From a virus, in the IMG/VR virus record IMGVR_UViG_3300020147_000139, positions 1-29,341 of that record: 29,341 nucleotides of DNA. The stretch is one strand, 5' to 3'. The stretch's first letter is position 1. Each line of letters opens with the position of its first letter. Under the pieces are notes generated by a model. That model was not told where the DNA came from. It was given only the letters and a program-made list of their open reading frames with translations, and made no database searches. Made by a program: the position numbers and the translations under genes. Positions 1,875 to 22,505 of the stretch are shown in pieces.

Positions 1875-1982
1875 AGCGGGGCACCAGAGTGCGGGCACAC
1901 TCGGGCGCCCCTGACCACAACCACCTACCACGGAGGTGAATCATGGCTACTGTTCATCCTATCACCCTGGCCGGCTGGCGCG
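1875..1982 (+). repeat. Leader repeat, copy A
   Basis: The stretch from AGCGGG at 1875 through the first codons of a small ORF at 1943 closely matches 10830-10945. Shared blocks are CTGACCACAA, CCACCT, GAGGTGAA, TCATGGCT, CATC, CCGGC and TGGCGCG. The distance from AGCGGG to ATG is 68 bases here and 70 in copy B. A ribosome-binding site (GGAGGTGA) sits before ATG 1943. It looks like a duplicated leader plus gene start within the outer element. Confidence 0.7.
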
Positions 1983-2970: not shown

Positions 2971-3249
2971 ATGGTGACTTCCAACGAAGATCCTGCAACC
3001 CGCAAACGGAAAAAAAGCCGCGTCGAACTCGCCCGCGAATTCATTGAAGCCCACGAAGAGGCGCTTCTAGGCACCCCCCCGGTTGCGGCGTGGTTGGACT
3101 GTTCCGAAGCGAAACTTGAGCGCGACCGCTGGGCCGGTGTAGGTATCCCGTATATCAAGCACGGGCGACACGTCAGATACGTGAAGCGTGTTGTATTGGA
3201 GCACGTGCTGCGGGAAAGCCGCGCTTCTACGTCCGCCGACCCGGCGTAA
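2971..3249 (+). CDS. AlpA/excisionase-like DNA-binding protein
   Basis: A 92-residue basic protein. Residues around 38-75 (PPVAAWLDCSEAKLERDRW, then GVGIPYIKHGRHVRY) follow the pattern of the small winged helix-turn-helix fold used by AlpA and excisionases: a helix, then a G-x-GIPY-x-K-x-GR-x-VRY wing. These proteins usually control integrase expression or excision direction in satellites and islands. The start at ATG 2971 is preceded by GAGGT within a hairpin. The gene precedes the replication genes, as in many phage satellites. The fold is fairly secure; the exact regulatory target is inferred. Confidence 0.75.
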   Translation: MVTSNEDPATRKRKKSRVELAREFIEAHEEALLGTPPVAAWLDCSEAKLERDRWAGVGIPYIKHGRHVRYVKRVVLEHVLRESRASTSADPA

Positions 3250-3263: not shown

Positions 3264-3836
3264 ATGGACTTCGACAACCGCGACACGCGGTCGGGAGAGG
3301 TGCGCCCTGCGTTTCAAGGCGGCTCGGATGGGGCGCCCCCGAGCGCTCGGGATCATCACGAGCGGGTCACGCAGAGGGGAAGCGGCCGGGGGCGCTGCTT
3401 TTCGGAACCGGGACATTATACCGCCAACCGGCGTGTAGTTGTCCCCTTTCCAGTCGGGCTGAAGCTTCCACCTTCTTATGGCCGGCGCGTGGTTGCGCTC
3501 CGGCGAACCCGCGAAACTCTGCTCGAGGTTTTGACCGGATCGGCCGCGATGGACGAAGCGGCGCGGCGCTTCGAGCTAGAAGCCAAGTACGGCGACCCGC
3601 CGAGCTTGTTTGCTGCCTTGCCCTACCAGCGAAACGCGAGCGGCTACGATTGGTCATTTTGCTTGGAGTTGGACGTTGCCATCATCACCGTTGGACGACC
3701 GGAAACCGACATAAGCCTGTTGCATCTCGCCCAATTAGTGCTGGAGGCCGGAGCTGGGACCGTCGTCGTCCGACTCGCGCAGGGACTGGAAATTCTTAGG
3801 CGCGACGCCTTCGGGGTCACATGGAGAATGTACTGA
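3264..3836 (+). CDS. Hypothetical protein upstream of the RepA-like helicase
   Basis: A 190-residue ORF with a strong ribosome-binding site (GGAGGTGG) ahead of ATG 3264; another ATG at 3259 opens a different, shorter frame. The first 50 residues are low in hydrophobics and look disordered. From VVVPFPVGLKLPPSYG onward the sequence looks like folded protein, with alternating hydrophobic strands and a C-terminal helix (LLHLAQLVLEAGAGTVVVRLAQGLEIL). I do not recognise the family. It overlaps the start of the helicase gene by 16 bases, so the two are probably co-translated. Confidence 0.6.
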   Translation: MDFDNRDTRSGEVRPAFQGGSDGAPPSARDHHERVTQRGSGRGRCFSEPGHYTANRRVVVPFPVGLKLPPSYGRRVVALRRTRETLLEVLTGSAAMDEAARRFELEAKYGDPPSLFAALPYQRNASGYDWSFCLELDVAIITVGRPETDISLLHLAQLVLEAGAGTVVVRLAQGLEILRRDAFGVTWRMY

Positions 3837-5047
3837 TCCCACGAGGCGAACCGATCGCGTCGAACGACTTGCCACGGCTGGCCACAGACGGCAGCGGTCC
3901 GCCGAATTGGGGACCGGACACCGATCGCATTCCGCTTGAATGGCTGACGGTTCCGCCCAAAGAACCAAAGTTCATTTTCCCCGATCTTTTACCGGCCGAT
4001 ATTTGTGCATTCATCGGAACGGGCGGCATGGGCAAGTCCACGCTTTTGCTACAGCGAAACATCTGCATCATTCTGTCACGCTCATTCCTTGGCATTGAGC
4101 CGGCGCTAGATGGTCCTGTCCTGTATGTCACAAAGGAGGATGGCGCCGACCGTCTTCGTTATCGGCTGTTTAAGGTTTGCGACCAGATGGGATTGAACGA
4201 AAGCGCGCGCAAGTATGTGGCGGACAATTTCTACATTCGCGATTTCGTCGGCACGGATGCACGGCTAGCGCGGTTCGACGGGCGCGGCAATATCGAGATA
4301 ACCCCCTTGGCCGACCAGATAGTCGAGCGATACGCGGACGTGAATCCCGCGATCGTCACGTTCGACCCGCTGGTGAAATTCTCACCCGGCGAACGCGCGC
4401 CGAACGACGCAGAGGACGCCGTTATAAACGCCTCGATGCGGATTCGCGGACAACTCGGGTGCGCCGTTGAGTTGACGCACCACACCAGCAAAGCCGTATT
4501 TCGAGAGAACATCATCGACCATCATGCCGGGCGCAACGGCGCGGCGCTTGGCGATGGTGCGCGGGCTGTTTTCCAGCTTGTTACGCCTGAACCGAAGGCG
4601 GCGGCGGGCATTGCAACGCCGGAAGATATCGAGCAGGGAAACATTCTCTCGCTTCATGTAACCAAGCTGACCGACGCCCGGAAGCCGCGCGAACCGATAT
4701 GGATCAGGCGCAAAGGCTGGCTGTTCGAGCGAATCGAAATCCCGACCGAGGAAGAAGCGCGTGCGAATGCACGCCGGGAAAAAGAGCGACAGCTAGACGC
4801 CCGAATATCGGCACTCGTCACGTTCATCGAAGAAAAGCTTCGACAAACGCCGACCGAGCGGTTCACCCAAAACGATTTGGTTGACGCACGTAACCAAATC
4901 TTCGACGGAATAGGGCGCGACCCGATGCGCGACGTTATCAAAGCGGCTTTGCGGCGCGGCGTGCTGGTAGAAAAACCGTTGCCAGAGGGCGAAAAAAAGC
5001 GTGGCGGGAAGTATCACTTTCTCGCACCGTCGAGGTGGACGCTATGA
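3821..5047 (+). CDS. RepA-like AAA replicative helicase/ATPase
   Basis: A RecA-fold ATPase of the AAA_25/RepA type (408 residues), the class that unwinds origins for plasmids such as RSF1010 and serves as replication protein in satellites and islands. Walker A is GTGGMGKST (residues 66-74); a conserved acidic turn follows in YVTKEDGADRLRYR (about 102-115); Walker B is AIVTFDPL with D182; the sensor-like motif is ELTHHTSK (about 217-224). Residues from about 335 to the end look like a winged-helix domain (FTQNDLVDARNQIF ... ALRRGVLVEK ... GKYHFL). Downstream are a repeat cluster and an SSB gene, together forming a replication module. Autonomous replication of the excised element is inferred. 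Confidence 0.85.
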   Translation: MENVLIPRGEPIASNDLPRLATDGSGPPNWGPDTDRIPLEWLTVPPKEPKFIFPDLLPADICAFIGTGGMGKSTLLLQRNICIILSRSFLGIEPALDGPVLYVTKEDGADRLRYRLFKVCDQMGLNESARKYVADNFYIRDFVGTDARLARFDGRGNIEITPLADQIVERYADVNPAIVTFDPLVKFSPGERAPNDAEDAVINASMRIRGQLGCAVELTHHTSKAVFRENIIDHHAGRNGAALGDGARAVFQLVTPEPKAAAGIATPEDIEQGNILSLHVTKLTDARKPREPIWIRRKGWLFERIEIPTEEEARANARREKERQLDARISALVTFIEEKLRQTPTERFTQNDLVDARNQIFDGIGRDPMRDVIKAALRRGVLVEKPLPEGEKKRGGKYHFLAPSRWTL

Positions 5048-5286
5048 GCCGCGCAGTTTCGCGCAGCAACGCCAAAACTGCGCGCTTTGCTGTGCGCGGG
5101 TTTACTGCGCGGCCTTATAGAGAAAAGTGCAGTCGCGCACCAATGCGCGAACTGCCCTTCTCTTTTTCTGGCGAAGACTCGCGCAGCACCGCGCAGCAAT
5201 CGCGCAGTCGCACAGCAATCGCGCAATGGGCGATCTTCGACCCGTTTCGGCTTGGCGAGAATCCGATTCTGGAGGTAGCACGATGA
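5044..5286 (+). CDS. Small arginine/serine-rich ORF over the repeat cluster
   Basis: An 80-codon ORF whose ATG overlaps the helicase stop (ATGA) and whose stop overlaps the next gene's ATG (ATGA). This suggests a real, translationally coupled gene. The product is rich in Arg and Ser because it is written over GCGCAG repeats; only the C-terminal AQWAIFDPFRLGENPILEV looks like ordinary protein. No family recognised. It may equally be noncoding DNA kept open by chance within an origin region. Confidence 0.4.
   Translation: MSRAVSRSNAKTARFAVRGFTARPYREKCSRAPMRELPFSFSGEDSRSTAQQSRSRTAIAQWAIFDPFRLGENPILEVAR
5051..5228 (+). repeat. GCGCAG repeat cluster, candidate replication origin
   Basis: GCGCAG occurs at 5051, 5061, 5181, 5191 and 5202, with degenerate copies near 5212 (ACAGCAATC) and 5221 (GCGCAATGG). 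The right-hand group repeats every 10-11 bases (GCGCAGCACC, GCGCAGCAATC, GCGCAGTCG). Inverted copies (CTGCGC) lie at 5078 and 5105, so strand pairing is also possible. Helically phased short repeats next to a RepA-type helicase and upstream of an SSB gene fit an iteron-like origin. Origin function is inference. Confidence 0.45.
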
Positions 5287-5540
5287 ACGCCCCGACTGAA
5301 CAGACGGACGACGCCGGGCCGATCCGTTGCGCCGACTGCCGGCATCGGGTCACGACCGAGCACCCGGTTTTGACCGACTGCGCCAAGGGCATTCGAGCAC
5401 CCGGCGCGGGCGGGCTTTGGTGGAGCACGTGTGCGGAGAGTTTGAGCGGGCCGGAGCGGAAAAGGATTCTAAATCCTTTGTCCGTTGGCCCGAAACGCCC
5501 GAGCAACGGGGGCTTTGCCACGGACGGCGGCAGACGGTAG
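5283..5540 (+). CDS. Small cysteine-rich protein (possible zinc ribbon)
   Basis: An 85-residue product starting at ATG 5283, preceded by GGAGG. It contains CADCRHRV and, further on, TDCAKG and WWSTCAE, so four cysteines in its first half could bind zinc. Small phage proteins with an RCADCRH motif are common and mostly uncharacterised. The C-terminal part after about 5430 looks less natural than an alternative frame that reads CGEFERAGAEKDSKSFVRW, so a frameshift near there is possible. Function unknown. Confidence 0.5.
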   Translation: MNAPTEQTDDAGPIRCADCRHRVTTEHPVLTDCAKGIRAPGAGGLWWSTCAESLSGPERKRILNPLSVGPKRPSNGGFATDGGRR

Positions 5541-5544
5541 ACGG

Positions 5545-5775
5545 ATGGTAGACTTTGGACACGAAAAACCCCCGACGGAGCGGGGGCGACAGATGATTTT
5601 CGGCTACTACCTGCCGAGCAAAACGATAACACGAACCGACGGATCGGAGAACGACGAGGTGAGCCTGATACCGGACGACTTTGTTCGACAGATGAGAGGC
5701 TACCCCAATGATCGATGTTCTAATCGCGGGCCGACTGCTACGCGACCCGCAACGCCGAACCGGGCAATCCGGTAA
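5545..5775 (+). CDS. Small hypothetical ORF upstream of ssb
   Basis: A 76-codon ORF from ATG 5545, or 60 codons from ATG 5593. The central part (MIFGYYLPSKTITRTDGSENDEVSLIPDDFVRQM) looks protein-like, but the last 23 codons overlap ssb in another frame and look like ssb shadow. There is no clear ribosome-binding site. A hairpin with minus-strand terminator features lies within its 5' part. I report it as possible only. Confidence 0.3.
   Translation: MVDFGHEKPPTERGRQMIFGYYLPSKTITRTDGSENDEVSLIPDDFVRQMRGYPNDRCSNRGPTATRPATPNRAIR
5564..5586 (-). terminator. Rho-independent terminator read on the minus strand
   Basis: On the plus strand AAAAA precedes CCCCCG, a six-base loop and CGGGGG. Read on the minus strand this is a six-pair GC stem followed by TTTTT, the form of an intrinsic terminator. 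No minus-strand gene lies nearby, so it may stop antisense transcription, or it may simply be a hairpin in the plus-strand message. Confidence 0.4.
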
Positions 5776-6097
5776 AGCATTTACCACCGCGATGATTTCC
5801 GCAGCCGTCGAGGGCGCGGACGATCGGCAACTTGTTTCCGTCATCGCGTTCGGCGACCAGGCCGAGCGGTTGGGCCGGCTGAAAGCGGGGGATTCCGTTT
5901 TCGTTGCTGGGCCGGCGAAGCTCACGACGTGGGACCGCGACGGCGAGACGCGCCAGGGGCTGAACGTCACCGCAACGGGCATTCTGACCGCCTACGACGC
6001 ACGCAAACGGCGGGGCGACACGAACAAGCCGAAAGAGCATCAAAACGGCTCAACGCGGCAGGCCGTGCCCGAATTCGACGACGCCATTCCCTTCTGA
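5708..6097 (+). CDS. ssb: Single-stranded DNA-binding protein
   Basis: A 129-residue OB-fold protein with the SSB pattern: a first strand MIDVLIAGRLLRDPQ, a central VSVIAFGDQAERLGRLKAGDSVFVAGPAKL (the conserved F-G-x-A-E-x-L-x-L-x-G-x-V-x-V-x-G run) and a flexible linker ending in the acidic tip DDAIPF. That tip is the docking peptide for partner proteins in bacterial SSBs. It probably protects single-stranded DNA made during replication of the outer element by the upstream RepA-like helicase. GAGAGG ahead of ATG 5708 is a reasonable ribosome-binding site. Confidence 0.92.
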   Translation: MIDVLIAGRLLRDPQRRTGQSGKAFTTAMISAAVEGADDRQLVSVIAFGDQAERLGRLKAGDSVFVAGPAKLTTWDRDGETRQGLNVTATGILTAYDARKRRGDTNKPKEHQNGSTRQAVPEFDDAIPF

Positions 6098-6119
6098 TTT
6101 GACCCGCGAGGTAACCACC

Positions 6120-7097
6120 ATGCAGACCTTTGAATTCACGTCCAATTACGAGGAAACCGGCGCCGGCACCCTCGACTTCGCCGATGCCCCGTATCCGATC
6201 AGCCCCGAGTTGACGAAAGTCGCGCGGGAATACCGCAATGATCGGTTCATCGCCGACGAGGTTCTACCGCGGATTCCCGTCGCCAGCATGGAGTTCAAAT
6301 ATTTGACGGCGAACGCGGCCGAGTTGCTGGCGCGGCTGGAGACCCGCGTCGGGCGTAAGAGTAAGCCGAACGAAGTTTCGTTCACGGCCGGCGAAATCCT
6401 GGACGCGGTGCACGGCGCCGGGCTGGAGCACGTCCTTCCCTGGCATGACTTGGCGAACGCACCGGACCCGGACGAAATGAAGCGGAAAGCGACCAGGGAC
6501 ACGACGGATTTGATTTTGCTGGACCGGGAGCGGCGCGTTGCGAATCTGGTGTTCAGCAGTATCAGCTACCCGGCCGGCAACGTTCAGACGCTCGCCGGTT
6601 CAGCCCAATGGAACGACCCGGCAAGCGACCCGATTAAAGCCATCATGGACGCCCTGGACACTTGCATCATGCGGCCGAATATCGCCGTCCTCGGCCGGCG
6701 AACCTGGACCAAGCTCAAATTGCACCCGAAGATCGTCGAAGGCGTTTATTGGGTGGACGCCAATGCGGGAGTTGTAGGCCCCGACGACGTGGCGCAGGTT
6801 CTGGAAATCGACAAAATTTTCGTCGGCGATGCTTGGCACAACTCGGCGAAGAAGGGCCAAGCGGCGAGCTTGACCCGGTTATGGGGACCGCATGCGGCGT
6901 TTCTCTACATGGGCCAGCCCGGAAACCCGAACCGCTGGGGTGCAACGGCCGCATGGGGCGAGCGCTTCGCGTTCAGCTACGAGGACCCGAACCGAGGCGT
7001 CCGCGGCTCGCATGTGATTCGCGTCGGCGAGTACGTCGAGGAATTCCTCGTTTCCCCCGAACTCGGCTGTCTGATCCGCAACGCCGTCGCCGGCTGA
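6120..7097 (+). CDS. Major capsid protein-like (Gp13-like/HK97-fold candidate)
   Basis: A 325-residue protein with the features of phage major capsid proteins: an N-terminal segment ELTKVAREYRNDRFIADEVLPRIPV, a strand SMEFKYL, the block RVGRKSKPNEVSF, a spine-helix-like DTTDLILLDRERRVANLVF, and a C-terminal half with VLGRRTWTKLKLHPKIVEGV, LEIDKIFVGDAW and WGERFAFSYEDPN. The start is ATG 6120 with CGAGGT upstream; an in-frame TTG at 6099 is less likely. It directly follows ssb. No portal, protease or terminase is nearby, which is odd for a capsid gene. A capsid role is a strong family-level reading; assembly from this protein alone is unproven. Confidence 0.78.
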   Translation: MQTFEFTSNYEETGAGTLDFADAPYPISPELTKVAREYRNDRFIADEVLPRIPVASMEFKYLTANAAELLARLETRVGRKSKPNEVSFTAGEILDAVHGAGLEHVLPWHDLANAPDPDEMKRKATRDTTDLILLDRERRVANLVFSSISYPAGNVQTLAGSAQWNDPASDPIKAIMDALDTCIMRPNIAVLGRRTWTKLKLHPKIVEGVYWVDANAGVVGPDDVAQVLEIDKIFVGDAWHNSAKKGQAASLTRLWGPHAAFLYMGQPGNPNRWGATAAWGERFAFSYEDPNRGVRGSHVIRVGEYVEEFLVSPELGCLIRNAVAG

Positions 7098-7137
7098 TCC
7101 ACGATTCATTCACCAGACCCACGGAGAAACACGACCC

Positions 7138-8094
7138 ATGAACGCCGTCACCAATCGCGTATCAATCCGTCACGAAATCAGAACCAGGCTCGACGAGACC
7201 CGTCGCGCCTACGTTGAGGCCACGGACCGGGCCGAACAGCTACGCCGGGAGGAAATGGAACTCGGCCGCCGGCTGGACGCCCTGGAGCGGAAAATCCAGA
7301 ACCTTGAGAATGCCTGCGAATACCCGGACGACGAGCTCACCGCCGAACACGAGCGCATTAAAGCTGCGTTCCGGAAAGCGACCGAGGGCGCAGCCGAAGC
7401 CGAGGCTGCGGTTTCCCGCCTGAATTCGGAAATTCTCGCCATCGAGGGCGATATGAAAACGGTTCCGGACACGACCCTTGACGATATTTTGCGGGCTCAA
7501 CAGGCGCGCGACGAGGCGCAGGCCGAGCGGGATCGATTGGCCGCCCTGATCGGGCAGCAAGCCGGAATCGACCTGTCCGCCCGCGAATCGGAACTCGCCG
7601 CGCTCAAACGGCAGTACGGTGACATCCTGGCCGACGAGGCCGCAGGAACGCCGGTGGGCGCCGAGTATCTGACCGCTTTGGTCGAAAACATCGACCGGCT
7701 TGAGTCCGAAATCTCGGAGGCTCGAAAAACGGCCGAGCGGGACCGAATCCGGAACGAAGGGCTCGCCCGCAAGCTTGCGGCGGCCGACGACAAGCTTGCG
7801 GCAGCCGAGGCCGAATTCCGGGAAACCTTCCGCTGCTTCGTTACCCTACAGGAACAGCGCGCCCAACTCGATTACGTCAAGGCCGCGAACGACCTGATCG
7901 ACGCCTACGCACGATTCATGCAAATCAGCCGAATTCAGTCGCAGAACCGGCACCAGACGACCCCGATTTACGGATTCCTCAGCCTCCCAGGATTCAACGG
8001 CCGGCCGCTGATCGATAAGGCGACGCTGCTGAAGCTGCCGATCGACCCCGAACCGATGCTTGCCCAATGGCGCAAAAAGGGGCTCAAAGTCTGA
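7138..8094 (+). CDS. Coiled-coil protein following the capsid gene
   Basis: A 318-residue protein. Residues about 15-245 are almost continuous heptad-like helix rich in Ala, Glu, Arg and Leu. A C-terminal section of about 70 residues (DLIDAYARFMQISRIQ ... IYGFLSLPGFNGRPLI ... WRKKGLKV) looks folded. The start at ATG 7138 has ACGGAG upstream. Its position after a capsid protein suggests a scaffold, head-associated or DNA-organising role, but the family is not recognised. The protein at 21401 has the same length and layout (coiled coil, helix with LIRAYRRVIAFD, short tail ending GVKL), so the two are probably distant relatives. Confidence 0.75.
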   Translation: MNAVTNRVSIRHEIRTRLDETRRAYVEATDRAEQLRREEMELGRRLDALERKIQNLENACEYPDDELTAEHERIKAAFRKATEGAAEAEAAVSRLNSEILAIEGDMKTVPDTTLDDILRAQQARDEAQAERDRLAALIGQQAGIDLSARESELAALKRQYGDILADEAAGTPVGAEYLTALVENIDRLESEISEARKTAERDRIRNEGLARKLAAADDKLAAAEAEFRETFRCFVTLQEQRAQLDYVKAANDLIDAYARFMQISRIQSQNRHQTTPIYGFLSLPGFNGRPLIDKATLLKLPIDPEPMLAQWRKKGLKV

Positions 8095-8120
8095 CGTAAA
8101 GGCCGCCTAAACCGCGCGTT

Positions 8121-8402
8121 ATGAGCCAATCAACGCCGCCCGACGACCCGCGACAGGAGTATTTGCCGGCGAACCCTCCCCGTCTCCGGCAACGCCGGAT
8201 CAAATTGGCGACGCTGCGGGACGTTCAACGGGAAATGGCGCGGCTGTACCGGGATATGCGCAACGGGCGGCTCGATCCGAGCGACGGAGCGAAAATGACT
8301 TATACCCTGGCTACCCTCGGCAAGCTGATCGAGGTCGGCGACCTGGAGCGGCGCGTCGCGGAGCTGGAACTACAGCAGGAGAGGAACCGACGTGAATCTT
8401 AG
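8121..8402 (+). CDS. Small phage protein, terminase-adjacent type
   Basis: A 93-residue protein with proline-rich start and a helical core (LRDVQREMARLYRDMRNG, then DGAKMTYTLATLGKLIEV and DLERRVAELELQQ). Small proteins with this helix-GRLD-LGKLIEV-DLE pattern are often found next to phage packaging genes, although here no terminase follows. The start is ATG 8121. It overlaps the next gene by 11 bases. Function unknown. Confidence 0.65.
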   Translation: MSQSTPPDDPRQEYLPANPPRLRQRRIKLATLRDVQREMARLYRDMRNGRLDPSDGAKMTYTLATLGKLIEVGDLERRVAELELQQERNRRES

Positions 8403-8931
8403 AAAGCGCATTACCAAGTTGGAAGCCGAAGCCGGCCGGCGCCCCGAGGCGCGGCTGATCGTTCGGCGCATCGTCGGCCGGTTCGAGGATCGGCCGGAAT
8501 GCTACCGGATACACGGCCGGCTGATCGGGGCATCGAGGGCGTTGGAGCTGCATCGGGACGATGGCGAGCCCGAGGCGGCATTTCTGGAACGGGCGGCGCG
8601 GGAGTTGAAGCGTTACGAGGGCGACCCGGCCGGCTATGTCGCACCGATCGCCGTCAATCCACTGTTGCCCAGCGATTCAGAGCCCCTGATAAGCGACTCG
8701 GCGCAGCGCCTGGAGCTCGAAAGCTCCGATCCGGTGACGACGCCCGCTCCAATCGAGAACGCGCCCGAAAGCGTCCCGGAAGAGCCTGAACCCGCCCCGA
8801 AGCCAGCAGACGCCATGCCCTGGCGCAGCGGCGGACTACGTGGAACGCCAGCCGACTCCCGAAACGAAGGAAAGCGGACGAGCGCGACGATTATTCGCGA
8901 AATGGAGCAGTTGATTGAGCGATTACGGTGA
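8392..8931 (+). CDS. Hypothetical protein with proline-rich linker
   Basis: A 179-residue protein beginning at GTG 8392 with AGGAGAGG upstream. Residues 1-80 are basic and helical (RKRITKLEAEAGRR, RRIVGRFEDRPECYRIHGR). Residues about 105-145 are acidic and proline-rich (APIENAPESVPEEPEPAPKP), probably disordered, and the end is again helical (IIREMEQLIERLR). No known domain. It is the last plus-strand gene of the replication/capsid run and is co-translated with the upstream gene. Confidence 0.65.
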   Translation: MNLRKRITKLEAEAGRRPEARLIVRRIVGRFEDRPECYRIHGRLIGASRALELHRDDGEPEAAFLERAARELKRYEGDPAGYVAPIAVNPLLPSDSEPLISDSAQRLELESSDPVTTPAPIENAPESVPEEPEPAPKPADAMPWRSGGLRGTPADSRNEGKRTSATIIREMEQLIERLR

Positions 8932-9024: not shown

Positions 9025-10146
9025 TTAGCCTGCATCAAGGTGGAGCTTCGGAATGAGGGACGCGCTGAAAGCTTGAAGGTCAATCTTTGCCCAAGGATGA
9101 TCTCCAGGATGAGCTGCGGCTAGCCAGTCAAATTGAAATGGATCGTGCAAGAGAAAGGCATCGATCCGTTTCAGACGTTCAACGTCGTAGGGGGCGAGAG
9201 TCGGCAGTCCTTCTTGTGCGGCGACCTTCTTAAACACCAGAGGAAAGAGCAAAGAGGCGAACGCCAAATGGATGTGAGCGGGCCAAACGAATCGTGCAGC
9301 CTTACGCGGCTTGCCGTGGGCTGAAGCGCCCCTAACATCACAGAATTCTCTTGCCCATGCCTCAAGCGGTCTGGCTGCCTTACTGCGAGCATTTTGCCAC
9401 TCCTGCTTTAAGGGACCTTCCAGGGACTCAATAGGCGGAATGTCATGTAGGCAGCGTGAAAGCGCTTCCACAAATTCGTTCGCTTTCTCACTGATTTGCA
9501 GTAACCATTCAAATGCGGACTTCATCATGACCACTTCGACGTGCTCAGGAACATCGGGTGAATCGGTATTTGCACAGTTGAATTCCGTCAATGCCTCAAA
9601 AAACCGTGATTCACGCTCTGGAAGGTCTAGAAGTGCTGCGAGAAGAGATTCATCAAAGTCCACCTTCCCTGTCGGTTCTACGTGGTTTGGTCGATGGAAA
9701 GCAAACTCATCCGATGACCATAGTTGATTAGTACCACCATCGCGGCGGCGAGTCGAGAAAGCAAAGGTGCCGGCGTACCCCGGCTGATAGCGTTGCACCA
9801 CCAAAGAATAACTGTCGTAATTGCAATAGCCAAAGTGGTGCTGAAACAATTGCCTGCGCGATAAGGCGGCGAAAGCGAGGGCATTTCTTGCGCGGAAGAG
9901 GTCCGACACAATTTCTTGTGCGTCCATCCCACTCTGCCAGTGCCCGAACTCAAGAATAGTCGCTCTTGTTATTATCTTTCTTGGGCGGTTGGCATAAGCA
10001 CTGAGTACGCTATCGATATCGGCTTGCGTCACATGGGGGAGTGCCCCTGGCTGCTTGCCACGATGATAAGGAAGCAATCTAAGCGGTCCAATGGTGATAG
10101 GTTCATCGACCGCTATCCACGGAAAAAACGCTATTGCAGATGGCAT
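9025..10146 (-). CDS. HEPN-domain protein, putative RNase (defence candidate)
   Basis: A 373-residue protein. The HEPN catalytic motif R-x4-H is visible as R272 and H277 in CDVRGASAHGKPRK, within helices (PLEAWAREFCDVRG ... HIHLAFASLLFPLV). The N-terminal half mixes strands and helices (PSAIAFFPWIAVDEPITIGPL, FRARNALAFAALSRRQLF) in a way reminiscent of ApeA-like two-domain proteins. HEPN proteins with this motif are usually metal-independent RNases in toxin-antitoxin or abortive-infection systems. I chose ATG 10146 because the open frame upstream overlaps another gene and reads as shadow; no strong ribosome-binding site is visible. Last gene of a three-gene minus-strand operon. Confidence 0.65.
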   Translation of the reverse strand: MPSAIAFFPWIAVDEPITIGPLRLLPYHRGKQPGALPHVTQADIDSVLSAYANRPRKIITRATILEFGHWQSGMDAQEIVSDLFRARNALAFAALSRRQLFQHHFGYCNYDSYSLVVQRYQPGYAGTFAFSTRRRDGGTNQLWSSDEFAFHRPNHVEPTGKVDFDESLLAALLDLPERESRFFEALTEFNCANTDSPDVPEHVEVVMMKSAFEWLLQISEKANEFVEALSRCLHDIPPIESLEGPLKQEWQNARSKAARPLEAWAREFCDVRGASAHGKPRKAARFVWPAHIHLAFASLLFPLVFKKVAAQEGLPTLAPYDVERLKRIDAFLLHDPFQFDWLAAAHPGDHPWAKIDLQAFSASLIPKLHLDAG

Positions 10147-10183
10147 TTCTGGCTCATTGGCTCGTGACTGGGAAACGGCAAAG

Positions 10184-10597
10184 TTAGAGAGTATCCCGGA
10201 AAAAGACTTCGCTAAGATACTTTGAAACTGAGCGCGTGGCCGACGGCGAGCAGCGGGACACCGGGAACGCCCGCGGGATGTTCGGGCAATGCCGCTCGAT
10301 CCACTGGAAGTCAATGCCGCAGATGACGGCGCGGCGATCCGGGCCGCGTCCGGGATCAATCGCGGCGGTCAGACGGTCGGAAGCCCGTTCGAGCACGTGC
10401 AGCCGTTTTTCGAAATCCTGAACCCCTTCGGCATAGAGCACGTTCCAGAACCGCACGTGCAACCGATCCGATCGACGCCCGACCCGGCGAACCGACCGCA
10501 CGAGAATTGGCGAGCAGTAGGGCCGCCCGTCATCCAGATAGCCCGGCGTCATCTGCCATCCGTACCAGCAACCCGGCCGGAGTTGAAATTCAGTCAC
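10184..10597 (-). CDS. Hypothetical protein in the HEPN operon
   Basis: A 137-residue protein starting at GTG 10597, which overlaps the stop of the RHH gene (GTGA), so the two are coupled. The sequence is strand-rich in its first half (WYGWQMTPGYLDDGRPYCSPILVRSVRRV, RLHVRFWNVLYAEGVQDFEKRLHVL), followed by a helix and an Arg-rich end with a lone Cys. It resembles no family I know. It ends 37 bases before the HEPN start. It could be a partner of the HEPN protein or an unrelated phage gene. Confidence 0.6.
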   Translation of the reverse strand: MTEFQLRPGCWYGWQMTPGYLDDGRPYCSPILVRSVRRVGRRSDRLHVRFWNVLYAEGVQDFEKRLHVLERASDRLTAAIDPGRGPDRRAVICGIDFQWIERHCPNIPRAFPVSRCSPSATRSVSKYLSEVFFRDTL

Positions 10598-10773
10598 GGG
10601 GCGCGCTTGGGCCGGATTCCCGCCTTTTCCGCTTCGCGCAGAATCAGCGACTCGACCCAGTTGGATAGAGTCCGATTTTCACGTTCCGCCAATTCCTCGG
10701 CGAGTCTTTTGATTTCCGGTTTCACCCGGACGTTGATGGATTCGGTTTTCAGTCGTTTTTCTTGTATTGCCAT
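10594..10773 (-). CDS. Ribbon-helix-helix DNA-binding protein
   Basis: A 59-residue protein beginning MAIQEKRLKTESINVRV. The layout is a short basic beta strand (SINVRVKPEI), helix A (KRLAEELAERENR), a turn (TLSNW) and helix B (VESLILREAEKA), the MetJ/Arc/CopG fold typical of antitoxins and autoregulators. It is the first gene of the minus-strand operon ending in the HEPN protein and is coupled to the next gene by GTGA. It probably represses its own promoter in the adjacent intergenic region. Whether it also acts as an antitoxin to the HEPN protein is conjecture. Confidence 0.75.
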   Translation of the reverse strand: MAIQEKRLKTESINVRVKPEIKRLAEELAERENRTLSNWVESLILREAEKAGIRPKRAP

Positions 10774-10829: not shown

Positions 10830-10945
10830 AGCGGGCCGACATGGTGCAGCCACACCAAGCCGACCCTGACCACAACCCACCTGACAGAGAGGTGAAATCA
10901 TGGCTGCTGAGCATCTTAACATCCTGACCGGCCGATTCTGGCGCG
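10830..10945 (+). repeat. Leader repeat, copy B
   Basis: Counterpart of the leader at 1875-1982, with the same AGCGGG start, CTGACCACAA block, AGAGGTGAA ribosome-binding site and ATGGCT gene start. Here it leads into an intact ORF of 77 codons. Confidence 0.7.
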
Positions 10946-11643: not shown

Positions 11644-11700
11644 GTGGATTTAGACAATTCTCATGACGACGCTATGTGTGTGAAAACACGAAAACTTTAA
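11644..11700 (+). pseudogene. Gene start cut by the Mu-like insertion (possible)
   Basis: AAAGGGG followed by GTG 11644 opens a reading frame that runs six codons (VDLDNS) before entering the Mu-like left end at 11664, and stops after 18 codons. The good ribosome-binding site suggests the start of an outer-element gene interrupted by the insertion. Joining it to the right flank does not restore an obviously natural protein, so this is tentative. Confidence 0.3.
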
Positions 11701-11717
11701 CCCTCAGAACACGAAAA
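11664..11717 (+). repeat. Left end of the Mu-like element with two MuA-type sites
   Basis: It begins TGACGACGC. CACGAAAA occurs at 11687 and at 11710, 23 bases apart. The core 11683-11717 pairs with the reverse complement of 26735-26768, sharing CGAAAACTTT, TCAGAAC and CGAAAA with one indel. The pattern AARYRCGAAAR matches the inner half of the known phage Mu transposase-binding consensus, and the distance from TG to CGAAA (25 bases) is close to that in Mu (21). Confidence 0.75.
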
Positions 11718-11905
11718 GGGTGGGATTATCCGGCCACAGACGGGACTTCATGGGAATGAATTTGAATTGTCGCCTTCAAAATATGAAACGACATTTTGGG
11801 CTCTTACCCAGCCGGCGAGAGTCACTTAGTTTTCACCAATATTCACCCGTCAAGTCTTCCATTCCTTTTCATATGCTACGTTGGCGCTTCAGGGATGGAC
11901 GAGCT

Positions 11906-12271
11906 TCAAAAAGTGACATGAACTCGTTTGATGTCCGTATCAGTTCTGCAGGGATAGAACTTTCCCTGATTTTGATCCCATATCCCGCTATTGTTTCTTC
12001 GTGGTAGGGGGTGCTTTACGCCCGAGTCGCGAGCTAGGCGCCAGATGGCGTGTCCTCGGCTCTTGCCGAGCTGGCACGGCCGTTCGAGCCGGAGATATCC
12101 GGCCCGGTGGAGCGCCTTGATGTACTTTCTTAAATTGTCGTGGCCGATCCCGGACGTCGCGACAATATTCGCCGTCGTGAACCGCTTATAAATTCGCATC
12201 GAAGTCCATGCCAAGTCGCGCATGTTGACCCGCTTCCGCTTGGTACCATCGCTTTGATGGGGTCGTGTCAT
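11906..12271 (-). CDS. Winged helix-turn-helix regulator, Mu-like early region
   Basis: A 121-residue protein from ATG 12271 (an upstream ATG at 12307 would add 12 residues). The sequence RVNMRDLAWTSMRIYKRFTTANIVATSGIGHDNLRKYIKAL followed by HRAGYLRL forms a winged helix: recognition helix near DNLRKYIKAL, then a wing ending in AIWRLARDSG. Short proteins of this type are found near the lysogeny control region of Mu-like phages. It is the last of three minus-strand genes running away from the lytic promoter. Probably a DNA-binding regulator; its target is unknown. Confidence 0.7.
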   Translation of the reverse strand: MTRPHQSDGTKRKRVNMRDLAWTSMRIYKRFTTANIVATSGIGHDNLRKYIKALHRAGYLRLERPCQLGKSRGHAIWRLARDSGVKHPLPRRNNSGIWDQNQGKFYPCRTDTDIKRVHVTF

Positions 12272-12334
12272 CCCCTTTGTCGGAAGTTGAACGGCAGGCT
12301 GTATCACGTCTTGTTCCTTTGGTAATCGAAAGGG

Positions 12335-12799
12335 TTATCGTACAAAAGCCAGTTCCGGAACTGGCTTAAATTGGCCATCCATGCCGCAGACGGCCTGACA
12401 GGCCGACTTGCCGACATCGATTCCAGGCTTTTGACCGCCGCCCAGCGCGAAATAGCAGGTGTGTCCTCCTGGATAGTCACCGCCGGCCTTCGTCTTGAGT
12501 ATTTGCGGCGCCGCGACGATCTTCGCTTCGACCTCGATCATTCGGTCCCAGCCATATTCTCGTTGCCAAGTAACTTCCCCGCTTCGGAAGCGAGCGCTGG
12601 CGCTTTCGATATCGGGGCCGGCTATGCGAACTCCTTTGCAATGCTGCACCAATATTGCCAAAGCCGAATGCATCGTCTCCTCGTCGGCCTGACTACTGGT
12701 TTGTGCGACGATTCGAACAGAATTTTCCGGGTTCGATGTTTCGCAGGCTGAGAAGGCGACGAGCAGTAAACACAATAAGCGCCTCATGTTTTTATCCAT
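12335..12799 (-). CDS. Small lipoprotein in the lysogeny module
   Basis: A 154-residue protein starting MDKNMRRLLCLLLVAFSAC: a basic end, a hydrophobic stretch and a cysteine at position 19 in a lipobox-like VAFSAC, so it is probably a lipoprotein exported by Sec and anchored in a membrane. The mature part has four further cysteines that could form disulphides. Lying beside the repressor and expressed from the prophage, it is a good candidate for a cell-surface lysogenic conversion or superinfection-exclusion protein. That role is inferred from position and type only. Confidence 0.65.
   Translation of the reverse strand: MDKNMRRLLCLLLVAFSACETSNPENSVRIVAQTSSQADEETMHSALAILVQHCKGVRIAGPDIESASARFRSGEVTWQREYGWDRMIEVEAKIVAAPQILKTKAGGDYPGGHTCYFALGGGQKPGIDVGKSACQAVCGMDGQFKPVPELAFVR
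12346..12367 (-). terminator. Perfect palindrome at the end of the lipoprotein gene
   Basis: The 11-base arm AAGCCAGTTCC is followed directly by its exact complement. On the minus strand the palindrome is followed by TTTTG, giving a terminator-like stem that ends just before the lipoprotein stop codon. It could end the repressor-lipoprotein transcript or be a protein-binding site. Confidence 0.4.
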
Positions 12800-12814
12800 G
12801 TTGTTTGGCGTTCA

Positions 12815-13516
12815 TTAAAGACCCAAAGGTTCATCATCCTTCGGCTTGTTCGACTTTTCCGCATGGTCTAAGGCTGACTGTGCTTTAAGGTACTTCAACA
12901 AGATCGCAGCCCCCTCTTTTGTCAAGCCATGCCCAAACATTACAGTATCGAGCGCCAGCTTTATCAGGTGCGGCGGCTCATACCCAACGGCATCTATAAC
13001 TTCTTGACAATCCCTTCTGGCCGCCTCTACCCGTTCGCGGATATCTGCAAAGTGGCCTTCAAATCGATCATAAGCAGCCTTATCCCCAAAGACATATTGG
13101 AGGATCAAATTTGCTGTGCTCCTTTGGCGTTGGGTGCTGACCGGGCTGATAGCGATACGCTCAAGGGTGCGCTTCATAAGCAGCAAGCGAGGATCTGACT
13201 CAACTAAATCGTGAGCGATTCGCCCTGGCATTTGATCAAGAATCTCTCCTATTGCGTTTAACTCGGCATCAACAGCCGGATTTTCGTCCGGCTCGAGTGT
13301 TGTCGATCCTTTCCCCAATAGCAGCCAATTTAGAGAAATATTCTTCTCGCTGGATACCTCGCAAAGCTTCTCATAAGGCACCGTACCTCGCTTTCTCCAG
13401 GTGGATAGGACTTGCCTGCTTACCCCTATCGCATCGGCAAGCTCAACGTCCTTATCGGTTCCGAGAGCCGTTGCCAATCTCTCCAGTATTTGGTCGATTC
13501 CGTTTGCTTCAATCAT
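12815..13516 (-). CDS. CI-type phage repressor
   Basis: A 233-residue protein. Residues about 20-72 (DKDVELADAIGVSRQVLSTWRKRG ... SLNWLLLGKG) match the helix-turn-helix domain of the bacteriophage CI repressor family, including the characteristic SLNWLL-x-GKG ending. The C-terminal part is helical and charged and is not an S24 peptidase domain, so SOS-type self-cleavage is unlikely. It is transcribed away from the early lytic genes, with a palindromic operator between. It should maintain lysogeny of the Mu-like element by blocking the promoter at 13535, as the c repressor does in Mu. Confidence 0.82.
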   Translation of the reverse strand: MIEANGIDQILERLATALGTDKDVELADAIGVSRQVLSTWRKRGTVPYEKLCEVSSEKNISLNWLLLGKGSTTLEPDENPAVDAELNAIGEILDQMPGRIAHDLVESDPRLLLMKRTLERIAISPVSTQRQRSTANLILQYVFGDKAAYDRFEGHFADIRERVEAARRDCQEVIDAVGYEPPHLIKLALDTVMFGHGLTKEGAAILLKYLKAQSALDHAEKSNKPKDDEPLGL

Positions 13517-13530
13517 TGATTAATAGAATT

Positions 13531-13564
13531 CATGTTGACATGAAGTAATCATGATGATTACATT
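13531..13564 (+). promoter_or_regulatory. Early lytic promoter with palindromic operators
   Basis: TTGACA (13535-13540, a perfect -35) and TACATT (13559-13564, -10) are 18 bases apart. Between them lies GTAATCATGATGATTAC (13545-13561), with seven-base arms GTAATCA and TGATTAC around TGA. A second palindrome, CATGTTGACATG (13531-13542), covers the -35. A repressor bound to either would block RNA polymerase. The arrangement fits control by the divergent CI-type repressor and the Ner-like protein downstream. Confidence 0.65.
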
Positions 13565-13619
13565 TAGTCGTCGTTATTACTTTGTATCTTGAAAAAATGT
13601 TAACAAGGAGAATGCTCCC

Positions 13620-13847
13620 ATGAATAGCTATCAACCGCAACCAGGCCCTGACCTTTACAACAAGGTTCGCGGAAGCTTCGTTTCTAATGGCACCTCGCTT
13701 GGTAAATGGTGTCGCGAAAACGGGTCCTCGATACAGGCTGCCAAATCCTGTTTAACCGGCACCTGGAACGGCCCCAAAGGCCGCGAGCTGCGGCAGCGCC
13801 TGATTGAAGCGTCTGGCGTGGCCGATTCTGTTCGCAGTGCTGCTTGA
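13620..13847 (+). CDS. Ner/Cro-like early regulator
   Basis: A 75-residue protein, first gene of the lytic operon. AAGGAG (13604-13609) precedes ATG 13620. The motif GTSLGKWCRENGSSIQAAKSCL is a helix-turn-helix and is followed by TWNGPKGRELRQRLIEASG, a pattern found in small DNA-binding proteins at the start of Mu-like early regions. By analogy with Mu Ner and lambda Cro it would lower repressor and early transcription during lytic growth. The DNA-binding reading is fairly secure; the exact role is inferred from position. Confidence 0.7.
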   Translation: MNSYQPQPGPDLYNKVRGSFVSNGTSLGKWCRENGSSIQAAKSCLTGTWNGPKGRELRQRLIEASGVADSVRSAA

Positions 13848-13875
13848 TCTCTGTACATGACGTGAGGTTACCCAC

Positions 13876-13956
13876 ATGGAGAGAGAAAACACAGAAGCAC
13901 GCGGACGGAATTTTTGGCCGTCCGAATTTGAAGGAGTCGCGGGAGGTGTCCAATGA
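13876..13956 (+). CDS. Micro-ORF, 26 codons
   Basis: ATG 13876 follows GAGGT at a good distance, and the stop overlaps the next start (ATGA at 13953). The product begins MERENTEARGRNFWPSEFEG. The coupling suggests it is translated, perhaps only to deliver ribosomes to the next gene. No function can be given. Confidence 0.35.
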   Translation: MERENTEARGRNFWPSEFEGVAGGVQ

Positions 13957-14441
13957 CAGCTATCCATTGGAAACGCCAACAGCCGCGATCGCTACGGCAT
14001 GGCATGGAGCTTTGCCTGGAGCATGCTCGGGTCAAGGCAAACGCGAGCGTGGATCGAATCGCTGATTTGATGGGGCTGGCCAATAAATGGGTTCTTTACA
14101 AATGGATGGAATCCGGGCGCCTGCCGGCCGTGTTGATTCGCCCGTTCGAAACGGCGTGCGGTATCGATTACGTCACGCGGTATCTCAGCCACTCCGCCCG
14201 CAAGCTGCTGGTCGACATTCCCACCGGTCGCAAGGCCACGGGGCGTGACATTAACAGCCTTCAAGCCTCATTCGCCGAAGCCGTATCGGTACTGCTGCGG
14301 CACTACGAAGGGAAGACGCCAGTGGATGAAACCGTTGCAGCGCTGACCGGCGTGCTAGAGGAGCTGGCGTGGCACCGGGCGGAAGTCGAGCGGCGCGCCG
14401 CGCCCCAAATGGATGTCTTCGAGGAGGCCACCGATGAGTAA
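13953..14441 (+). CDS. Early-region DNA-binding protein (CII-like layout)
   Basis: A 162-residue protein. A helix-turn-helix is visible at about residues 30-60 (ANASVDRIADLMGLANKWVLYKWMESGRLP), then PFETACGIDYVTRYLS and a helical C-terminal half (ASFAEAVSVLLRHYEG ... ALTGVLEELAWHRAEVERRA) likely to oligomerise. The order HTH then oligomerising helices resembles phage CII-type regulators. It is preceded by GGGAGG and overlaps the next gene by eight bases. It likely modulates early or transposition gene expression. A family name cannot be given with certainty. Confidence 0.65.
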   Translation: MTAIHWKRQQPRSLRHGMELCLEHARVKANASVDRIADLMGLANKWVLYKWMESGRLPAVLIRPFETACGIDYVTRYLSHSARKLLVDIPTGRKATGRDINSLQASFAEAVSVLLRHYEGKTPVDETVAALTGVLEELAWHRAEVERRAAPQMDVFEEATDE

Positions 14442-14805
14442 CGGAACGGGATTGGCCGACCGGATTGCGGCGCAACTGGCGGCCTTGTCAACCCAACAGG
14501 CGCTCCAGGTACTGACGGAGGTGCAGCAGCGCATATTAAAGGCTTCCGTCACACGGGATGATGAGGGTTTGAGTCGGCCCTGGGCGCCGTGTCCGGTCGC
14601 GATTCGCAGTCCTGTAGGAGGGGTAAGCAAAATCGAGAGTGATCCTGAGATTCTCGCGTTTATCACCGGGCTCACGGAATACCAGAGCCTGAAGAAAATC
14701 GTGGATTTATGCATCCGGAAGTTCGGGCTAGAGCGATCGCCTAGCAAGAGTTCGGTGCATCGCTACCTGCAAAAAATTTCCAAGTTACAAGAGGAGAAAT
14801 CTTAA
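14434..14805 (+). CDS. Small early DNA-binding protein
   Basis: A 123-residue protein starting at ATG 14434, inside the end of the previous gene with GAGGAGG upstream. The N-terminal part is helical (LADRIAAQLAALSTQQALQVLTEVQQRILKA). The C-terminal part, DPEILAFITGLTEYQSLKKIVDLCIRKFG followed by SPSKSSVHRYLQKIS, looks like a helix-turn-helix in which the last helix reads DNA. Proteins with this C-terminal pattern occur in several phage early and packaging regions. Function unknown beyond probable DNA binding. Confidence 0.65.
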   Translation: MSNGTGLADRIAAQLAALSTQQALQVLTEVQQRILKASVTRDDEGLSRPWAPCPVAIRSPVGGVSKIESDPEILAFITGLTEYQSLKKIVDLCIRKFGLERSPSKSSVHRYLQKISKLQEEKS

Positions 14806-15132
14806 ATGTCCGAAGCCTGCAACAAGACCGTTATCCGATCGGGAAAGGTCCTGGAATGCCTGTTTGAAGACGACTTTAAGGGCAAGACCGAGCTGCAAAT
14901 CGTAGAAATGACGCAGATCCCCCTCCCCACGATTTACCGGATCTTGCAGACCTGGAAGACGTTGGGCTGGGTTGTCGACGTGCCCATCCCCGGACGCAAG
15001 GCGGTGCAATGGCGGATTAGCAGCGAAAAGCTGCTGCGGATCGCTCATAGCCACAAGCGGCACATGTTGCGGCAGGTGCACAGCCTGGAGAAAGAGTACC
15101 TGGACATCGCCGGAGAGGAATTGCGCGCATGA
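14806..15132 (+). CDS. Winged-helix protein, IclR/MarR-type N-terminal domain
   Basis: A 108-residue protein with GAGGAG upstream of ATG 14806, which follows the previous stop directly. Residues about 9-70 (SGKVLECLFEDDFKGKTELQIVEMTQIPLPTIYRILQTWKTLGWV, then PGRKAVQWRIS) form a winged helix of the kind heading IclR regulators; the helix PTIYRILQTW would contact DNA. The IclR ligand domain is absent and a short helical tail follows. It probably regulates early or transposition genes. The fold is well supported; the target is unknown. Confidence 0.7.
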   Translation: MSEACNKTVIRSGKVLECLFEDDFKGKTELQIVEMTQIPLPTIYRILQTWKTLGWVVDVPIPGRKAVQWRISSEKLLRIAHSHKRHMLRQVHSLEKEYLDIAGEELRA

Positions 15133-15166
15133 GCACGTTCAACTCGCTCAACGATTCGAGCGTGAT

Positions 15167-15199
15167 CCCAAAAATTCTCGATTTGTCGGAGATTTTGGG
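15167..15199 (+). terminator. Candidate terminator after the early regulator genes
   Basis: CCCAAAAATTCTC pairs, with a bulge, to GGAGATTTTGGG, followed by TTTAGAGTTTTT. The stem is AT-rich and the tail is T-rich but interrupted. A second hairpin, GTCGGA/TCCGAC (15252-15270), lies in the same gap. The 205-base gap (15133-15337) holds no other gene and may separate early regulators from the transposition genes. Confidence 0.35.
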
Positions 15200-15337
15200 T
15201 TTAGAGTTTTTCAAATATGCCTAAAAATCAATTGCTTAGCATGTCATGCCGGTCGGAAAAATTATCCGACGTCTTAGATTTTGGGGCGCTGCCTATTTTG
15301 GTCCGCGAACGCATTAGGTACGCGAGGAGTTAATCGA

Positions 15338-16363
15338 ATGACAGAACAAGAATCACTAATTGAGAGCGTGGCCGCCGATATGAATGCCCGTCGGCAAAGG
15401 CTCGAAACAGCAAAGAGCGAGACAACGATGGCTCAGGAGTTAAGTCTAGCGACCGCCCAGCAGGATTTCGACCGGGCCGGGTATATCGAGGATAGGGACG
15501 ATCTGAACCAACTGGTCGGCCGCGTTCAAATGGCGAACGTGCATCGAAAATTCTCCGATTATGCAGTCTTTACGCTGCTCGAAAGCATCCATGAATCCAA
15601 GCAATATCGATTACTTAAGGGGAAGACGTTTACTGGGTTCGACGGGGCAGTCTTCGACGCCGGGACTTGGGAGGGGTTCTGCCGTCTGTGTGGGACATCG
15701 GCGAGCACGTTCGACGAATGGGCGAAGAACAAACAGGCTATTGGCGAGGATGCGCATAGGACTTTACAGCAGATTGGCTTGACTACGCGGGACTTTCGCC
15801 AGATTCGAAAACTTCCCGACGATGACAGGAAAGCCATCGCTGAAGCGGTCGAAGCGCACGCAGTCGATAAGGACGCGATCCTCGACCTGATCGACCAATT
15901 ATCCACCAAGCACGCCAAGGAGAAGGAATCCTTGGAGAAGACCGTCCAGAGGCAAAAGCACCAGCTGGAGGAGAAGGCGGAGGACATTTCGAAGAAAGAC
16001 GCGAAGCTCGCCGAACTGAGAGCAACGCTCGAAGACCTCAAGCGCACCGAATTGCCGCCCGACGAGGCCGAACTCGCCGCCTTGCGTCGCATCCAGGAAC
16101 TGGAGAGGGATTACAAAGCCATTGTCGGCGCCGTGGAGCTTGTCCGGCTGGATCAGGCCAGTGTAACGGTCCGGGTCAAGATGGTGCACTTGGTCGAGTA
16201 TTTCGAGGTTTATGCCCGAAAGCTGCGCACGGACCTAATGCATAAGTATCCAGACTTGTGGGATGGCGCTGTTGGCGACAGCGATGTCATGGAAGTTCGT
16301 GCCGAATTGGACAAGGTGACCGAGCGCCTGGAGCGGGATCTTCCCGTCAGAGCGCTGAGCTGA
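15338..16363 (+). CDS. Coiled-coil protein upstream of the transposase
   Basis: A 341-residue protein. I chose ATG 15338 because GAGGAG lies eight bases upstream; the open frame extends further back without a good start. Residues about 75-160 look folded (FSDYAVFTLLESIHESKQYRLLKG, FCRLCGTSASTFDEWAKNK, LTTRDFRQIRKLPDDDRKAIAEAV). Residues about 190-270 form a strong coiled coil rich in Lys and Glu, and a helical end follows. Proteins of this size and layout are common just before MuA-type transposases in Mu-like phages with no known function. It may assist transposition or early DNA metabolism; this is inference from position. Confidence 0.7.
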   Translation: MTEQESLIESVAADMNARRQRLETAKSETTMAQELSLATAQQDFDRAGYIEDRDDLNQLVGRVQMANVHRKFSDYAVFTLLESIHESKQYRLLKGKTFTGFDGAVFDAGTWEGFCRLCGTSASTFDEWAKNKQAIGEDAHRTLQQIGLTTRDFRQIRKLPDDDRKAIAEAVEAHAVDKDAILDLIDQLSTKHAKEKESLEKTVQRQKHQLEEKAEDISKKDAKLAELRATLEDLKRTELPPDEAELAALRRIQELERDYKAIVGAVELVRLDQASVTVRVKMVHLVEYFEVYARKLRTDLMHKYPDLWDGAVGDSDVMEVRAELDKVTERLERDLPVRALS

Positions 16364-16371
16364 GGTGTGCC

Positions 16372-18093: not shown

Positions 18094-18103
18094 GAGCGAG
18101 GCA

Positions 18104-19291
18104 ATGACCGATCAATCCCTTCGACTCAAGACCTACGTCCAGCAATTGGGCGGCCAAGTTCAATTCACGCGGTTGATGGCGGAGCAGGGTTACAGCTGCT
18201 CCAGGAGTCTGCTGAACCAGACCTGCAATCACGGTGTGCTGCCAAAGCGCAATGGGGATGCGTACAAACAGGCGATCAACCAGGTGTTAAGGACGGCTGG
18301 AATGGATGCCGAAAGCGCCTGGTTACCGCAATCGGAGAGTGGACCCGCCAACGCCCATCCGCCCAAGGTTGGCGCAAGCGGGTCCGTGCCGAGTATCAAT
18401 CAATTGCCGCGAACAACTCAGCGGGGAGATTCTACTGCCATGATGAATAAAACTAAAGCAACCTTGGAACCGGAACATCTCCGGCATTTCAGCCTGTCCG
18501 ACGATCCGTTTTTCGACCTGGCCGATCACCGGGAGATCTGGCTGAACAACCACTTGGAATACGTCAAGCACCTGATCCAGCGGACCGCAGAGAACCGGGG
18601 CATGATGGTGCTCACCGGCGACTACGGCGCGGGTAAATCGACGTTGCTGCGCCATGTGCTGGGCGAAATGATCGCCAGCGGCAAGGCAGAAATCATCATG
18701 CCCGACCGTCTGGACCGCCGGGCCATGCACGGCGACATGCTGACCCTGGCGATCGTCGATCAGCTCGGGGGCGGCATGCGCATCCCGCGATCGGTCCTCC
18801 AGCGCGACCGGTTGGCCAAGCGGCTATTGACCACGGCAATGGAGCGCGGCGAACACCCTCTCCTGGTGATCGATGAGGCGCACGATCTTCGTACCGAGTT
18901 GTTCGTTGCGCTTAAGCGCCTCTGGGATTCCGGCCTGATCTTCCGCGAGATCGGCATTCTGTTGGTGGGCACTGGCGGCAAGGATGCCGGCGGACGGTCC
19001 TGGGGGCTCCGTTGGGAGATCGAGGGGAACCCGGATATCCGGGAGTTCGCCGAGCGAGCCCACTTGGTAGATCTCGGACGACTAGCCGCGACCCTGCCGG
19101 AGTATCTCGCCTGGCGCTTCCGCAAGGTCGGCGCCGCCCTGGATGAGGTTTTCGCGCCCGGCGCGGTTGAGGTCTTAACCGAGCAGGCGCAGACGCCTCA
19201 ACTGGTCGGCATCTACGCCGTGGGCGCCATGCGCGAAGCCTATTTGGACGGCGCCTTGAAAGTGTCGGCCGACCACGTGCTGAGGGTTTAG
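18104..19291 (+). CDS. B: MuB-like AAA+ ATPase, transposition target selector
   Basis: A 395-residue AAA+ ATPase of the MuB/TnsC/ExeA group that picks target DNA and activates the transposase. Residues 1-70 are a helix-turn-helix region (YVQQLGGQVQFTRLMAEQGYSCSRSLLNQ), as in MuB; 75-125 form a linker; Walker A is TGDYGAGKST (171-180) and Walker B is LLVIDEAHD (253-261). Two consecutive ATG codons at residues 113-114, preceded by GGGGAGA, could allow a short form without the DNA-binding domain. ATG 18104 has GGAGCGAGG upstream. Mu's MuB has 312 residues, so this one is longer, mainly in the linker and N-terminal region. Confidence 0.9.
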   Translation: MTDQSLRLKTYVQQLGGQVQFTRLMAEQGYSCSRSLLNQTCNHGVLPKRNGDAYKQAINQVLRTAGMDAESAWLPQSESGPANAHPPKVGASGSVPSINQLPRTTQRGDSTAMMNKTKATLEPEHLRHFSLSDDPFFDLADHREIWLNNHLEYVKHLIQRTAENRGMMVLTGDYGAGKSTLLRHVLGEMIASGKAEIIMPDRLDRRAMHGDMLTLAIVDQLGGGMRIPRSVLQRDRLAKRLLTTAMERGEHPLLVIDEAHDLRTELFVALKRLWDSGLIFREIGILLVGTGGKDAGGRSWGLRWEIEGNPDIREFAERAHLVDLGRLAATLPEYLAWRFRKVGAALDEVFAPGAVEVLTEQAQTPQLVGIYAVGAMREAYLDGALKVSADHVLRV

Positions 19292-19462
19292 GCCATGCCA
19301 AGGCGCAATTGTGATCCTGGCCTCTACCCGGAAGGGCGGGTAAAACGGTTTATAACAGGTGTTACAGCCACGTTTTCGGGGAATTCGGACTCTGGCGAGG
19401 GCGACGGGCGTGGGCGCGGCTGTGTGGCGCTTGATGCCGATCAATCCATCGGAAAAAAAACG

Positions 19463-22503: not shown

Positions 22504-22505
22504 TT

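Follow-up and report, generated by a model that had tools for sequence, protein, structure and literature searches.

Capsid-forming PICIs (cfPICIs) encode an entire head and packaging module, comprising capsid, portal, protease and terminase genes. A more economical arrangement is found in the staphylococcal island SaPIbov5, in which the capsid homologue Ccm occupies the pentamers and is the sole satellite protein needed to convert helper heads to a smaller form (PMC8569155). P4-like satellites and the AH14b element (PMC4936722) offer further systems for comparison, as do the PICMIs, which reside at fis and have no capsid-remodelling gene; satellites generally are about one third of the size of the helper genome (PMC10803314). 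Here, we compared these systems with an element carried by a 29,341-bp IMG/VR record (the window, analyzed over its whole length), which comes without attached host genome. The initial annotation had placed an element at positions 3264-8931, in which an integrase, an AlpA-like regulator, a RepA helicase and an SSB preceded a major-capsid-like protein and a coiled-coil protein, and had likened it to capsid-encoding satellites. Our analysis supports the satellite reading, but the layout is not that of cfPICIs, as there is no whole head and packaging module.

The proposed interval did contain a real block of genes, but its borders were wrong. A tyrosine integrase is present at positions 1-1236, beyond that interval, and genes shared with relatives continue to about position 11677. 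There, an inserted transposable element (11677-29341, forward strand, its right end beyond the record) cuts the outer element within gene P145. Two uninterrupted relatives were found, in Methylocaldum sp. 14B (L008) and in genome G039, and judging from these the right end of the outer element (the rest of P145, P204 and the att site) lies outside the record. A 64-bp direct repeat (L008, positions 1982-2045 and 15050-15113) flanks the 14B island, and its second copy overlaps tRNA-Lys(CTT). The G039 island is at the same tRNA-Lys, with a 50-bp repeat and the same tRNA-Pro/Arg/His/Lys cluster alongside. Measured from repeat to repeat, the islands span 13,068 bp in 14B and 11,610 bp in G039, and these 11.6-13.1 kb correspond to 30-34% of the B3 genome (38.4 kb), which agrees with the ratio usual for satellites and helpers. 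The outer element is a mobile island of methane-eating bacteria that combines general satellite features, namely an integrase, att repeats at tRNA-Lys (in the two relatives) and the absence of a full virion gene set. From its identities to the 14B and G039 islands, the host of the window is probably Methylocaldum. At the DNA level, the 14B island is 99.7% identical to the window in the integrase region and 96.5% identical in the SSB-capsid-coiled-coil region, and its RepA gene is different. The replication module was exchanged between islands, while the SSB gene, the capsid gene and the coiled-coil gene (hereafter CC) were retained.

Unless stated otherwise, the genes of the outer element lie on the forward strand. 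The integrase (Phage_integrase E 2e-20, PHROG 1 E 1.6e-51) is followed by two small genes (1233-1830), antitoxin-like and PIN-type toxin-like from their translations read by eye and kept in both relatives, and by a gene for a 238-aa protein with no assigned function (2154-2870), in place of which a RovC-like regulator (P258) stands in 14B and G039. Next is a gene for an AlpA-like small DNA-binding protein (2971-3249), also kept in both relatives. Its annotation as AlpA-like agrees with matches to HTH_17 and to PHROG 2528 (E 9e-13, a family of unknown function), but the call is weak, the HTH_17 match (E 0.014) being below the cut-off. A 190-aa protein with no assigned function (3264-3836) is conserved among the three islands only. 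The RepA and SSB assignments were both upheld, the former as a RepA-type AAA_25 ATPase (3821-5047, Pfam E 8e-24) and the latter as a single-strand DNA-binding protein (5708-6097, Pfam SSB E 6e-10). The G039 RepA is 91% identical to that of the window, and 14B has another AAA_25 protein. Then come the capsid gene (6120-7097), CC (7138-8094), the small gene P93 (8121-8402) and P179 (8392-8931), the last conserved in the three islands. On the reverse strand, a 444-aa cargo gene (9025-10359), missing from both relatives and without Pfam or PADLOC match, is followed by a truncated homologue of the relatives' 234-aa protein (10184-10597) and by a gene for an RHH protein (10597-10773); PADLOC returned nothing for the cargo genes. 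Three small forward-strand genes, P77, P83 and P71 (10900-11626), are common to the window and its relatives. A 103-bp direct repeat with 76% identity (window 1875-1975 and 10830-10932), also present in the 14B and G039 islands, spans the leader and first codons of two small genes and is possibly a shared control region.

The product of 6120-7097, which had been called major-capsid-like, is a full-length major capsid protein. It matches PHROG 1005 'major head protein' over residues 22-324, nearly its whole length (E 1.7e-77), and is 48% identical, over 95% of its length, to the capsid proteins of B3-type transposable phages. The match to Pfam Phage_cap_E was just above the cut-off (E 2.5e-5), and the solved chain 3bjq_A was matched both by sequence (E 3e-15) and by profile (E 7e-24). 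An AlphaFold model built from three sequences, with no deep alignment, had a pLDDT of 30; a putative HK97 fold is supported by the sequence matches to PHROG, Pfam and the solved chain. In a phylogenetic tree, the two satellite capsid proteins grouped on a branch apart (support 100/99), close to the B3-type proteins, and both have 19 additional N-terminal residues that are absent from six other aligned homologues. Between the window and G039, dN/dS was 0.32 (capsid gene), 0.40 (CC) and 0.22 (RepA), with frames intact, and these three genes are therefore kept under selection. That the capsid gene is a decaying bit of a former B3-like prophage, caught in the island and now functionless, is in our view quite improbable. 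Such a remnant would account for the presence of one structural gene only, and other elements with CC (see below) have differing, incomplete structural sets, in some cases including truncated genes (a second copy in G028, and G609). Against this, capsid gene and CC are intact in the three islands, with dN/dS of 0.32-0.40, and occupy the same place between SSB and P93 in islands with precise att sites.

As the initial annotation had noted, the outer element has no detectable portal, protease or terminase: the capsid gene was the sole match when the element was scanned with B3 markers, and Pfam and PHROG scans of the remaining genes did not find any of the three. Likewise, no further structural gene was detectable in the 14B and G039 islands. 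Across Methylococcales, capsid relatives were encoded in 15 of 301 genomes, and the survey of gene neighbourhoods that had been proposed for the RepA-SSB-capsid run recovered the island layout in 14B and G039 only. At 11 of the 14 other capsid loci, at least one more B3-type structural gene adjoined, the remaining three being distant relatives that show no clear state. The lone-capsid layout therefore differs from the usual prophage context. The objection that the block might be a fragment of a normal prophage fails, because the relatives are att-bounded islands of 11.6-13.1 kb with no other detectable structural gene, and purifying selection acts on the capsid gene (dN/dS 0.32); we consequently ruled it out.

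The island resembles cos-type SaPIs such as SaPIbov5 in being integrated, in its size class and in having a single capsid homologue and no other shell gene. The two differ in host phylum, capsid family and replication genes, and the island pairs its capsid protein with a coiled coil and shows no small terminase. Like cfPICIs, it encodes its own major capsid protein, but it lacks their portal, protease and terminase by both B3 markers and family scans. With P4-like satellites and AH14b it shares an integrase, an AlpA-like regulator, a replication protein and the form of an 11-17 kb tRNA-type island. Unlike P4, it has a capsid protein, and no Sid-, Psu- or Delta-type genes were among its Pfam and PHROG matches. 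PICMIs are similarly compact, with an integrase, AlpA and a replication gene, but are located at fis with a DUF3987 primase, whereas the island is at tRNA-Lys with an AAA_25 RepA. By these features, as read from sequence, the island is not a cfPICI, a P4-like element or a PICMI.

A lone capsid gene, with no other head or packaging gene, suggests that the island travels by hijacking the particles of a helper phage. The dependence on outside packaging genes put forward initially is supported, as packaging genes are absent and the relatives are att-bounded mobile islands. With moderate confidence, we interpret the outer element as a site-specifically integrating island of the phage-satellite type whose capsid homologue would enter helper heads and probably shrink them, as does Ccm of SaPIbov5. 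Redirection of head size is plausible by analogy with Ccm and from the size of the element. When a B3/Mu-type helper infects or is induced, the island would excise and replicate using RepA and SSB. It would then produce its capsid protein and CC, the helper providing portal, terminase, protease and tail. The island capsid protein, with its N-terminal extension, would co-assemble with the helper shell protein or replace it, and CC might be a scaffold or redirecting factor, a role guessed from where its gene lies and from its helical form. The resulting smaller heads would fit 11-13 kb and shut out the helper genome of about 38 kb.

The same two genes could also serve interference, the capsid homologue acting with CC as a dominant-negative subunit that poisons head assembly of incoming B3-like phages and guards host and island without aiding island packaging. 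A lone capsid homologue beside a coiled coil would be enough for this, the island backbone bears variable cargo elsewhere, and neither a packaging site in the island nor a resident helper in 14B or G039 was recognized (no Mu-type portal in either genome). We nevertheless consider this unlikely: in other compact elements, CC homologues join portal, tape measure and protease genes as well as Mor, which fits a use in helper assembly better, and the known Ccm does both simultaneously. It is very improbable that the capsid protein and CC build their own closed particle or compartment, independently of the helper shell protein. Although the capsid protein is full-length and cfPICIs form their own heads, the island lacks the portal, protease, head scaffold and terminase of such elements, and it does not encode an obvious cargo enzyme. 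Capsid homologues encoded by satellites are well characterized in staphylococcal islands, and under the helper-hijacking reading a second, unrelated lineage would make copying of one structural gene a general hijack route.

The gene P93 is found in 58 of 311 Methylococcales genomes, in a large family of integrase/primase-type islands, and had no match among phage records. It was dropped as a terminase-like or satellite-specific marker and is considered a general island gene. We infer that the capsid gene and CC are a cassette placed in this backbone between SSB and P93. Genome G184 has primase, helicase, SSB, CC and P93 genes in the order of the window, with no capsid gene. Several of the P93 islands (L115-L129) have AlpA-like genes, as well as cargo that includes large helicase genes or restriction-like genes.

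The lone-capsid pattern is repeated independently, as capsid plus tape measure, in the 10-kb Vibrio plasmid pVPGX2015-1 (NZ_CP034307.1, L004), in which the only head gene encodes a capsid protein of this family and a tape measure gene is also present. Its tape measure shares 60% identity with the one of the 38.6-kb phage-plasmid pVPGX2 and is about 125 residues shorter in the aligned part, and the two plasmids have in common a 1.2-kb stretch with 96% identity. A further stretch of about 94 bp (80% identity) matches DNA just upstream of the small terminase gene of pVPGX2 and is possibly a packaging site. In the tree, the pVPGX2015-1 capsid protein has a long branch (1.02, versus 0.10 for its partner). 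The plasmid looks like a satellite of pVPGX2-type phage-plasmids and has not been described as one. It is similar to the island in being a small element with the same capsid family and no other head gene, but differs in being a circular plasmid with ParA, a serine recombinase and a tape measure, and in its kinship with pVPGX2.

The coiled-coil assignment of 7138-8094 was borne out, CC being predicted to form long helices (mean pLDDT 81). Homologues occurred in 9 of 311 Methylococcales genomes and, among 369 sampled genomes of the class, were confined to 14B and one more genome, G609. A hold-out profile built without window-type CCs recovered them (E 9e-28) from a set of 2225 ORFs, with zero unrelated matches, and on this basis we rejected chance coiled-coil resemblance among the homologues. 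The family had no match in 50,697 phage records or in plasmids, and IMG/VR scans gave a known relative only, or nothing. A PDB search with the CC profile and PADLOC both returned generic coiled coils only, and no viral structure was significantly similar to the CC model in a Foldseek search (best E 0.046).

CC homologues are carried by small Methylococcales elements, usually together with a Mor-type activator and varying, incomplete Mu/B3-type structural sets. Genome G258 has a complete 10.2-kb island (L064:425-10743) bounded by 97-bp repeats, with an integrase, CC, a lone Mu-type portal, DUF3987 and a Mor-type activator. The compact transposable element of G190 encodes MuA, MuB, CC, Mor, a portal extended by a protease-like part and one more large protein. 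In G609, MuA, MuB, GemA, Mor, CC and a tape measure are followed by host-like genes, and in G028 CC and Mor accompany a protease domain and a virion-morphogenesis protein. The integrase-bearing islands of G113 and G042 have CC with no structural gene adjoining it, and att repeats were not found for these two elements. Each of the two genomes holds a separate Mu-type prophage, which could be a helper. Mor could not be detected in the capsid-bearing islands, which sets them apart from the other CC elements. Compact transposable elements of this kind lie at L033:1050-12737 (MuA, MuB, CC, Mor and a portal whose C-terminal part is protease-like, with tRNA-Thr on the right flank) and L078:6252-19772 (MuA, MuB, GemA, Mor, CC, tape measure and additional CC-like pieces), the latter outside the capsid-bearing group.

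The transposable element nested in the window (11677-29341) encodes MuA, MuB, GemA, Mor, a tape measure and a portal, and has a second CC homologue at 21401-22357. Mor and CC are followed by a short tape measure (23378-25051) and then by a B3-like portal (25097-26458), which is not preceded by a terminase. It is unlike a plain Mu-like prophage and may itself be a transposable satellite. CC marks a wider, apparently undescribed group of such elements, which is the more novel part of our findings. A tentative proposal, somewhat short of probable, is that they form a new satellite group of Mu/B3-type phages, with integrase-borne and transposase-borne forms that have in common CC as a coiled-coil assembly factor and, in most cases, Mor as a late activator. 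Each would seize a different virion-assembly step by means of a capsid protein, portal, protease or tape measure of its own. The window would then hold two of them, one nested in the other. Among the titles and abstracts retrieved in a literature search, none concerned satellites of Mu-like or transposable phages. The CC elements would provide natural single-step variants (capsid, portal, tape measure) for learning which virion part sets head size, packaging and tail length. In a Mu-like prophage of another genome, G124 (L034), the head operon seems to begin with the protease gene, neither a terminase nor a portal being located immediately ahead of it, and a Mu-type portal is located elsewhere on the same contig, at 33048-34079.
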